Below are positions 15,443 through 17,945 of a stretch of 64,000 bases of DNA, piece after piece. Below the pieces are notes generated by a model. It ran no database searches, was not told where the DNA came from, and was given only the letters and a program-made list of their open reading frames with translations. The position numbers and the translations under genes are program-made. Position 1 is the stretch's first letter. Each line of letters opens with the position of its first letter. Where the stretch lies: contig NZ_CP011125.1 in the NCBI RefSeq assembly GCF_000737325.1, positions 8,866,001 to 8,930,000 of the forward strand. Reading direction: 5' to 3'. The DNA comes from Sandaracinus amylolyticus. Its GTDB lineage: Bacteria; Myxococcota_A; Polyangia; Polyangiales; Sandaracinaceae.

Positions 15443-15910
15443 TCACTCGTGGTGGTGACCGTGGCCGCCGTGGCCGTGATCCGGCGTGCAGCGCGCGTCT
15501 TCCCAGCCGACCCAGTACGCGCCGTCGGGGCCGTGCTCGCGCTTCCAGATCGGCACGCGCTCCTTGATGCGATCGATCAGCGCGCGGCACGCGTGGAACG
15601 CCTCGCCGCGATGGGGCGCGCTCGCCGCGCACACGACCGCGACGTCGCCGACGTGCAGCGCGCCGATGCGGTGCGCCGCGGCGAGGCGCGCGTCGGGGAT
15701 CTCGCGCTCGAGCTCGTCGACGATCCGCTGCATCTCCGCGAGCGCCATCGCCTCGTACGCCTCGTACTCGAGCAGCGTCACCGCGCGACCGTCGTTCACG
15801 TCGCGCACCGTGCCCTCGAACACGACGATCGCGCCCGCGCCCGGGCGGCGCACCTCGGCGGCGACGCGCTCGGTGCTCAGCGCCGCGCGCTCGATCGACA
15901 CGCAGCTCAC
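15443..15910 (-). CDS. moaE: Molybdopterin synthase catalytic subunit MoaE
   Basis: MoaE uses thiocarboxylated MoaD to convert cyclic pyranopterin monophosphate to molybdopterin. The 155-aa product shows GAIVVFEGTVRD, the LEYEAYEAMALAEM strand-helix pair, AAHRIGALHVGDVAVVCAAS (His-Arg motif) and the near-invariant VPIWKREH with active-site Lys. A His-rich tail (DHGHGGHGHHHE) follows, which may bind metal and is longer than usual. The GTG at 15910 overlaps the moaD stop as GTGA, so translation is coupled. No other molybdenum-cofactor genes are in the window. Confidence 0.93.
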   Translation of the reverse strand: MSCVSIERAALSTERVAAEVRRPGAGAIVVFEGTVRDVNDGRAVTLLEYEAYEAMALAEMQRIVDELEREIPDARLAAAHRIGALHVGDVAVVCAASAPHRGEAFHACRALIDRIKERVPIWKREHGPDGAYWVGWEDARCTPDHGHGGHGHHHE

Positions 15911-16161
15911 GCGCAGCCTCCTGCGACCGGCGGGATGATCGCGATCACGTCGCCCTCCTCGATGGCGTCGCTCATCGCGGCGAACGCTTCGTTGCGCGCC
16001 CATCGCAGCGACCCGCCGCGACCGGCGAGCGCAGGCACGCGCTGCTCGATCCACGCCGCGAGCGCGCCGACGGTGCGCACGTCGTCGGGCACGTCGACGC
16101 GCTCCTCGGCTCGCCCCGCGAGGTCGCGCGCGCCCGCGAAGTAGAGCACCGTGACGCGCAT
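15907..16161 (-). CDS. moaD: Molybdopterin synthase sulfur carrier MoaD, with residues after the Gly-Gly
   Basis: An 84-aa beta-grasp protein: MRVTVLYFAGARDLAG at the start, VGALAAWIEQRVPALAG, and the end DVIAIIPPVAGGCA. Family members normally stop at the double glycine, which is adenylated and thiocarboxylated. Here the codons for Cys and Ala follow before TGA, read directly at 15907-15918. Its ATG shares a base with the stop of the upstream gene (TGATG) and its stop overlaps moaE (GTGA). Either a peptidase trims the last two residues or the carrier is impaired. Identity is secure from sequence and the moaE neighbour. Confidence 0.9.
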   Translation of the reverse strand: MRVTVLYFAGARDLAGRAEERVDVPDDVRTVGALAAWIEQRVPALAGRGGSLRWARNEAFAAMSDAIEEGDVIAIIPPVAGGCA

Positions 16162-17945
16162 CAGGCGCGCCCGATCGGCGGGTTCGCGCCCGAGGGCTCC
16201 ATCGCGACGCCGAGCTCCTTGCGCAGCGCCATCCACGAGGGCGAGACCGAGTAGGTGATCAGGTCGTCGATCAGATCGTCGGTGAGCACGCCGGGCACCG
16301 CGGGCATCATGCGCTGCATGCGGTCCGACACCGCGAGGCCGCCGCACAGCGCGAACCCGGCGCGCACCGCGGTGTGGTGCACCGCGCGGCGATGACGGCG
16401 CACCGCGTGCGCGAGCTCGGCGCGCGGATCCGCGCCGGCGAGGCGCAGATCGGCGGTCGCGTTCTGCAGGGCTTCGCGCACCGGCGGGACCATGTGGCGC
16501 GCGAGCGCGTCGGCGAGGCCGACGATGCGCGCGTCCTGCGAGGGCACACGCCCGTCGAGGTGCAGCGCCGCGAGCACGATCGCCTCGAGCTCGAGCTGCG
16601 CGGGCGCGAGCGCGATCAAGTACGCCTCGTGCCGGTAGAGCGAGAGGTGGTGCCCGAGCACGTGCAGCATCGACACCTCGTCGAAGCCGGTCGCGAGCGT
16701 GCCGCCGCAGAGGCTCGCGACGGGCCACGCGTGCAGGTGCGCCATGCCGCCCGGGACGTCGGTGCGCAGGAAGAAGCGCGGGCGATCGAGCGAGAACGCG
16801 CGCGCGGCGTGCGCGAAGAGGCGACCGACGCCGCCGCCCACGTGCGCGAGATCGATCTCGTCGCGCGGGCGCAGGCCGAGCTCGCGATCGGAGCGCGCGC
16901 GCATCTGGAGGTACGCGGGCCAGAGCGCGCCGAGCAGGCGGCCGATCTCCGCGTCCTCGTCGTCGTGCGCGAGGAACGCGCGGAAGAGATAGGGCGAGAG
17001 CGGCGTCGGGAAGCCGGGCGGCGACTCGGGCTGCAGGCGCGAGAGGCGCAGCTCCATCGCGTCGGCGACGTGGAGGTGCGCGAGCGCGCGCGCGACCTGG
17101 CTCGCCTCGTCGAGCGCGCCCTGCTCCCAGTGGTGGCGGAAGCTCGCGCGCAGCGCGTCGAGATCGCGCGAGCTGCGCACGATCGGCGCGGGCTCGGACG
17201 CGAACGCGGGAGGATGGACGCTGCCGCTCGACGCGCCGATGCGCGTGGGCTCGGAGCTCGGCTCGCGGGTGGCGGCGGTCTTGCCGATCGAGATCGAGGC
17301 GGGGGTCTGGTCGCGACGCGCGAGCGGCGCCGGCTTCTTCGCTGCGGGTGACGGCGTCGCGCCGGGCTTCGTCGCGGGCGCGCGCGGAGCGGGGCTCGAC
17401 GAGGGCACGTCGCGGGGCGGCTGCGTGCCCGGGGCGCGCACGGTCTTCGGGATGCGGACGACCTCCATCTCGGCGCTCTCGGGCGGGCGCATCGTGGACG
17501 GCCGATCCGAGCCCGACCGGCGCGGGCGCGCCGGCGGATGGCTCGAGGGCGAGCGTCGCACCTCGACGATCTCCTCGAGCTCGAGCACCCGCCGCACCGC
17601 ATCGCGCTCGATCTCGAGGAGCGACAACACGAGCACGCGTCCGTCGACGGTGCGCGCCTCGAGCTGCAGCTCGCCGGTGCGCCACGCGAGGCTCAGCGGG
17701 AGATCACCGGCGAGCGGCAGCGCGCGGAAGGCCTCGAAGCGCTCCGGCCGCGTGAGCAGGCACGGAGCGCCTCCGGCGAGCCGCAGAACCAGCGCCTCGC
17801 CCTGCTTGCGATCGAACGAGCGCCCGATCAGCGCCCAGTCCGCGATGGTGCCCGCGGGCAGGTCGCCGGGCAGCCACTCGGCCAGGTCACGGGGGAGCGC
17901 GGTCACGGGGCGAAAGATACACGTAGCGCGATCCGCCGCTATCAT
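16161..17945 (-). CDS. Conserved myxobacterial hypothetical protein, 594 aa
   Basis: Starts at ATG 17945, preceded by GAAAGGA; GTG 17906 is a weaker alternative. The N-terminal 120 residues form a compact domain (DLAEWLPGDLPAG, LSLAWRTGELQLEARTVDGR). A long Pro/Ser/Lys-rich low-complexity linker (about 130-270) follows, then a helical C-terminal domain with LGLRPRDEIDL, FFLRTDVPGGMAHLHAWP and VLGHHLSLYRHEAYL. That last block recalls a domain found at the end of many TPR proteins in myxobacteria; its clustered His residues could bind metal, but no HExxH is present. The stop overlaps the moaD start, so the gene heads the moaD-moaE operon. Function unknown. Confidence 0.82.
   Translation of the reverse strand: MIAADRATCIFRPVTALPRDLAEWLPGDLPAGTIADWALIGRSFDRKQGEALVLRLAGGAPCLLTRPERFEAFRALPLAGDLPLSLAWRTGELQLEARTVDGRVLVLSLLEIERDAVRRVLELEEIVEVRRSPSSHPPARPRRSGSDRPSTMRPPESAEMEVVRIPKTVRAPGTQPPRDVPSSSPAPRAPATKPGATPSPAAKKPAPLARRDQTPASISIGKTAATREPSSEPTRIGASSGSVHPPAFASEPAPIVRSSRDLDALRASFRHHWEQGALDEASQVARALAHLHVADAMELRLSRLQPESPPGFPTPLSPYLFRAFLAHDDEDAEIGRLLGALWPAYLQMRARSDRELGLRPRDEIDLAHVGGGVGRLFAHAARAFSLDRPRFFLRTDVPGGMAHLHAWPVASLCGGTLATGFDEVSMLHVLGHHLSLYRHEAYLIALAPAQLELEAIVLAALHLDGRVPSQDARIVGLADALARHMVPPVREALQNATADLRLAGADPRAELAHAVRRHRRAVHHTAVRAGFALCGGLAVSDRMQRMMPAVPGVLTDDLIDDLITYSVSPSWMALRKELGVAMEPSGANPPIGRA

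Follow-up and report, generated by a model that had tools for sequence, protein, structure and literature searches.

Sulphur carriers of the MoaD type act through their very last residue, and the chemistry of MoaD requires that the carboxylate of its terminal glycine be free. Some carriers are nevertheless synthesized with this end covered. QbsE, a carrier of a siderophore pathway in Pseudomonas, has Cys-Phe after its Gly-Gly, and the dipeptide is removed by the JAMM peptidase QbsD, encoded in the same operon; HcyS, a carrier for homocysteine synthesis in Wolinella, ends with an alanine after Gly-Gly, and this residue is removed by another JAMM encoded in its operon, HcyD.

Among molybdopterin carriers the covering residues may amount to an entire protein. 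MoaX, the fused MoaD-MoaE of Mycobacterium tuberculosis, is cleaved between Gly82 and Ser83 and this cleavage is required for activity; both glycines are essential, there as in the MoaD of Escherichia coli, and the protease that cleaves MoaX in mycobacteria is called unidentified (PMC4326299). In Deinococcus radiodurans, DRJAMM cleaves a MoaD-MoaE protein and is needed for its use, cPMP being detected in the DRJAMM mutant and not in the wild type (PMC8832034). Mec+ frees cysteine from the CysO-cysteine adduct by hydrolysis (PMC3227635), and Iyer and others had proposed in 2006, in a paper where the CysO type of operon also figures, that JAB peptidases free fused ThiS or MoaD (PMC1779556). The principle of the masked carrier is already known. 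We consider here how it may apply to a stand-alone MoaD of Sandaracinus amylolyticus, encoded in a window that is the whole stretch of 64,000 nucleotides analysed.

The end of moaD and the start of moaE

The moaD gene lies on the minus strand (15907..16161), with 84 codons and a stop, and its product, which ends IIPPVAGG-CA, matches PF02597 and scores 75.2 bits with TIGR01682, the NCBIfam equivalog model of moaD, for a cut-off of 66.15. Residues 3-82 cover positions 1-80 of the 80 of this profile. The functional diglycine, Gly81-Gly82 (GGA GGC, 15916..15921), closes the match, and Cys83-Ala84 (TGC GCG, 15910..15915) extend two residues past the end of the family. Indeed, the gene terminates as GTC GCA GGA GGC TGC GCG TGA, that is Val-Ala-Gly-Gly-Cys-Ala-stop, minus-strand bases 15918-15907 being the GGC TGC GCG TGA of Gly82, Cys83, Ala84 and the stop. 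An earlier note on this DNA had stated that MoaD ends GGCA and not with a free Gly-Gly, and that the same bases form the GTGA start of moaE; both statements hold. As encoded the product does not end Gly-Gly, and it would do so only after the trimming that we infer below; it has the residues beyond the conserved diglycine that mark carrier precursors processed by a JAMM. From its sequence we file it as a MoaD that would be made as a precursor, its diglycine being present where the profile match finishes.

The gene that follows, moaE (15443..15910, minus strand, 155 aa, PF02391), starts with a GTG at 15910-15908 and thus shares four bases, GTGA (15907..15910), with the moaD stop. The codons GCA GGA GGC of Ala80-Gly81-Gly82 create a Shine-Dalgarno-like AGGAGG (15917..15922), separated from the GTG by six bases, and this is likely to be the ribosome site of moaE. 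Since GCA and GGA are both rare in this genome (3 of 277 alanine codons and 4 of 175 glycine codons in seven genes or open reading frames, moaD included), selection for that site appears to be the best explanation of their presence here. The tail codons, in turn, exist because they fill the spacer between AGGAGG and GTG together with the overlap. A stop placed immediately after Gly-Gly would have left room for a start as well, so that the tail is to be seen as a by-product of the overlap, not as strictly forced by it. In the order, for which 121 MoaD genes were read (the sample is described below), the commonest codons at these three positions are GCC GGC GGC (21 genes) and GCG GGC GGC (15). 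GGA at Gly81 is not rare across the order (23 of 121), GGAGG is found at these codons in 23 genes, mostly of the kind that stops after Gly-Gly, and the full AGGAGG in four: that of the window (genome G000), that of a congener (G024), one with moaE on the other strand (G081) and one that is fused to moaE (G050).

Two further points concern the layout of the locus. At 16161-16163 the TGA of an upstream open frame shares one base with the moaD ATG (TGATG), and the upstream frame, moaD and moaE may be three genes chained by overlaps. A programmed frameshift yielding a MoaD-MoaE fusion was also considered, and a reading by eye of the junction found no slippery X XXY YYZ heptamer.

The earlier note had envisaged that a sequencing correction might place a stop after Gly-Gly, and had suggested that relatives be compared. 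Genome G024, from a second species of the genus, encodes a MoaD 94% identical to that of the window, and the tail, the AGGAGG and the GTGA overlap are all identical. The two moaD genes differ in 18 codons, 13 of which are synonymous and none of which is among the last 14; that an independent genome repeats tail and junction despite these differences rules out a sequencing error. The mostly synonymous divergence fits purifying selection acting on the protein sequence, and not decay. The third congener, G030, ends GGT GGG GGC GCG TGA, hence GGGA-stop, with the same GTGA overlap and no AGGAGG: the overlap occurs independently of that motif.

A single MoaD in a genome with the pathway

The genome is a single contig of 10,327,335 bases. 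The ThiS-family profile of Pfam has three matches over its cut-off, the window MoaD, a CysO-like protein and ThiS, with a fourth far below, and the only match of TIGR01682 at E <= 1e-5 is the window MoaD; MoaE has a single match. With these two carrier profiles no second canonical moaD was found, which the earlier note had named as a possible refutation. The one other candidate is the CysO-like protein, which ends GG and whose gene belongs to a cysteine operon. That this protein serves MoaE, the moaD of the window being a bystander, would require discounting that location, the overlap of moaD with moaE conserved in G024, and the fact that the window MoaD is the only TIGR01682 match; a C-terminus, IIPAIAGG, that resembles MoaD, and a narrow pass with the SAMP1 model (62.5 bits for a threshold of 60) speak for it, and we hold it to be extremely improbable.

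Besides the overlapping moaE, the genome has one MoaA over the cut-off, a rhodanese-ThiF protein of the MoeB type and two molybdopterin-oxidoreductase matches, one of them full length; these genes suggest that the cofactor pathway is in use. (Twelve of the 26 matches of the MoaA model, far under its cut-off, fall within 46 kb at C1:414140-459640, a dense cluster of what are probably radical-SAM enzymes.) The constraints of the overlap and of the ribosome site could by themselves account for the tail, and it might be imagined that it is tolerated and never removed, MoaD functioning with GGCA or functioning poorly. The need for a free glycine carboxylate, the essential character of both glycines in what is reported of E. 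coli MoaD and MoaX, and the fact that the sole MoaD has diverged mostly at synonymous positions make this very improbable.

Masked diglycines in the order and the phylum

When 144 genomes of the order were searched with MoaD, 118 gave matches. The sample retained consists of 121 genes from 118 genomes, namely 117 of those matched (G141, with partial matches only, was dropped) and G041, found via its moaE. Seventy-four of these genes stop after Gly-Gly, in 41 the reading frame continues as a fusion into MoaE, and six have a tail of one or two residues, GGCA in G000 and G024, GGA-stop in G030, G015, G119 and G125. In the last three there is no moaD-moaE overlap, moaE being in the other order or convergent, so that overlap by itself cannot account for all the tails of the order. 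After the diglycine of 39 fusions (all 41 except G018 and G035) comes S in 25, A in 12, and G and V once each. One genome, G100, has two fused genes (L143, L145).

Outside the order, 44 of 62 MoaD loci of the phylum (L266-L335) are fused, 17 stop after Gly-Gly and one is cut by a contig end, in a sample that is not random (the 22 best loci and 40 picked down the match list). This non-random proportion may be set against the 775 genomes with MoaD-MoaE fusions among 33,957 bacterial genomes that a 2024 survey counts (PMC11237513). Of the 38 named MoaD loci read, most of them distant, 32 stop after Gly-Gly and five continue, as judged by eye from the residues, into a MoaE-like frame; tails of 1-15 residues are absent, which speaks against the reading proposed below. 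The remaining one, a MoaD-like protein in a record titled Candidatus Bathyarchaeota (L242, from position 2001), has 23 residues after Gly-Gly and then a stop. A masked Gly-Gly is common in the order, and the Cys-Ala tail is a modest example of a known theme.

These fusions invite another account of the origin of the tail, compatible with trimming: the overlapping pair would descend from a fused MoaD-MoaE gene of the family, the tail being a remnant of the linker. The family includes three further genera (g2, g4, g5) in which the two are fused in frame in the same D-to-E order, and fusions predominate in the phylum sample just described. In the MoaE tree, however, G000 and G024 group with sequences of families f7 and f12 (98/86), apart from the fusions of their own family, and joining the family rows (g1, g2, g4, g5) costs 36 log units with an AU p of 0.074, which is not rejected and not favoured. 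We consider descent from a fusion quite unlikely. The fusions of the order form two separate groups in this tree (where G045 is present twice, the G018 row is mislabelled GG and the bootstrap is not settled), which may mean either that fusion arose twice or that an older fusion was split later on.

A JAMM peptidase in a cysteine operon

A search for a JAMM-type peptidase gene, proposed in the earlier note as a check, gave two JAMM proteins of the genome that pass the Pfam cut-off. One, stand-alone (Prok-JAB, 64 bits), is the last gene of an operon running CysK-like, E1, CysO ending GG, CysM and JAMM; E1, a carrier ending GG, a PLP enzyme of the CysM type and a JAMM thus occur together as in the CysO/Mec+ operon. 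Its HSHx7SxxD motif is intact (HSHCDAGSYFSAED together with PSECCG), as it is in all 40 JAMMs read. The gene is linked to CysO and not to moaD, from which it lies 4.3 Mb away (4.555 Mb and 8.882 Mb). A JAMM of this type, with CysO, CysM and E1 beside it, is present in all six genomes with a tailed MoaD, and CysO lay within the stretch at 18 of the 20 loci where the neighbourhood of the JAMM was inspected. The mere presence of a JAMM was rejected as a marker of masked MoaD, Pfam matches being found in 127 of the 144 genomes, too many to discriminate.

Orthologues of this JAMM were matched in 118 genomes (the short fragment matches of G132 and G075 were left out) and are 56-95% identical in families f1-f4, f6 and f8-f11 and 35-49% identical in f5, f7 and f12, two classes that were set after the gap was seen and that both track family lines. 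Counted by class of the host genome, the 41 fused MoaD genes are distributed as 37 with an orthologue at least 56% identical, none in the 35-49% class and four where none was found, in drafts 82-92% complete; the tailed genes divide three and three, and the 74 genes with GG-stop include six, 52 and 16 (none counted), an association confounded by shared ancestry and suggestive only.

The CysO carriers of the order are instructive in this respect. CysO has a match in 122 of 144 genomes; 81 were tried, G045 was missing, and in this set of best loci and picks, which is not random, 45 of the 80 read (L246-L265, L336-L405) have 1-10 residues after Gly-Gly. These tails, among them R, A, V, H, I, C, AQL, RSQ, SGGA, RGAC and RPWRA, have no evident pattern: the residues vary freely after the essential diglycine, as is expected if they are removed. 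They are commoner with the JAMM class at least 56% identical (26 of 38, against 17 of 40; Fisher p=0.025, with relatedness not corrected for), and are also found in both of the two genomes read that have no JAMM orthologue. The CysO of the window's genome and that of G024 end GG. This counts against trimming of MoaD by the JAMM, for in the genome of interest only the CysO-Cys adduct would need it.

Could the tail be removed by a different peptidase, either a carboxypeptidase or the other JAMM of the genome, at 8.296 Mb? That JAMM is over the Pfam cut-off and is fused to a ThiF, E1-like, domain; four fused MoaD genes are in genomes where no JAMM of the CysO type was found, and the protease that cleaves MoaX is, as noted, called unidentified (PMC4326299). 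The E1-JAMM protein belongs, however, to a different context, as it matches anti-phage E1-E2/JAB models and adjoins a patatin-like phospholipase gene, and the genomes of 37 of the 41 fused genes do have an orthologue of the CysO-type JAMM at least 56% identical. Removal by another enzyme seems to us unlikely. As to the locus itself (L006, 1438-3240 and 218-1621, at 8.294-8.298 Mb), PADLOC gave no match for the patatin-like phospholipase next to the E1-JAMM fusion, and our guess would be a CBASS-type or related conjugation module.

A proposed maturation of MoaD

We can therefore propose that the MoaD of the window is a precursor, probably trimmed after Gly82, the most likely enzyme being the JAMM of the CysO operon, with a tail that stems from the moaE overlap and its ribosome site. 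The overlap of the two genes at GTGA, and the use of the diglycine codons as the moaE ribosome site, would make two spacer codons land in MoaD, which would be produced with a two-residue extension. The Gly82-Cys83 bond would be cut before use, exposing the terminal glycine, and this glycine would then be adenylated and thiocarboxylated by an enzyme of the MoeB type, for MoaE. By analogy with the mycobacterial Mec+, the expected task of the JAMM of the CysO operon is to cut between Gly-Gly and Cys in the CysO-cysteine adduct, which makes it the likeliest cutter. The first residue of the tail is the very residue that CysM adds to CysO, and this agrees with a cut by that JAMM; the coincidence may be due to chance, because TGC doubles as spacer.

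The earlier note had opposed removal by a peptidase to a tail tolerated because of the overlap. The two appear complementary: an intact JAMM is present in the CysO operon and the overlap explains the tail of this gene, although it is not what produces tails in general (G015, G119, G125). We may go further, in a tentative way and at slightly less than even expectation: one JAMM would serve two carriers, freeing cysteine from CysO-GG-Cys and maturing MoaD at a GG|Cys-Ala junction that mimics the adduct, and the C-termini of carriers would drift, by way of tails, overlaps and fusions, since the JAMM resets them.

It is worth emphasizing that overlapping genes can add residues to the C-terminus of a protein for which this end is the active site, and this suggests that such additions can be afforded when a peptidase is present to trim them. 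If the JAMM of the CysO operon does trim MoaD, the syntheses of the molybdenum cofactor and of cysteine share a step and activation of the cofactor pathway depends on the cysteine operon; annotation that expects a stop after Gly-Gly will then misjudge many carriers in these bacteria.

Comparison with known systems

The tails of QbsE and HcyS, Cys-Phe and Ala, are much like those of the MoaD proteins considered here, Cys-Ala and Ala. They differ in that they belong to other pathways, with the JAMM encoded in the operon of the carrier, whereas here the carrier is that of molybdopterin and the JAMM is encoded elsewhere. A limited literature search met no precedent for a separately encoded MoaD extended by a dipeptide through a ribosome site placed on the diglycine codons. 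MoaX is alike in that its Gly81-Gly82 is masked by further residues and that it is cut after Gly82; there a whole MoaE follows, while here we find a dipeptide and a separate, overlapping moaE. DRJAMM offers by analogy the case of a JAMM that activates a masked MoaD, although the Deinococcus MoaD is within a fusion and the present one has a dipeptide tail. Finally, the CysO-CysM-Mec+ system has an operon of the same kind as that found in the genome of the window; the cysteine is added there by an enzyme, whereas in MoaD it is encoded by the gene.
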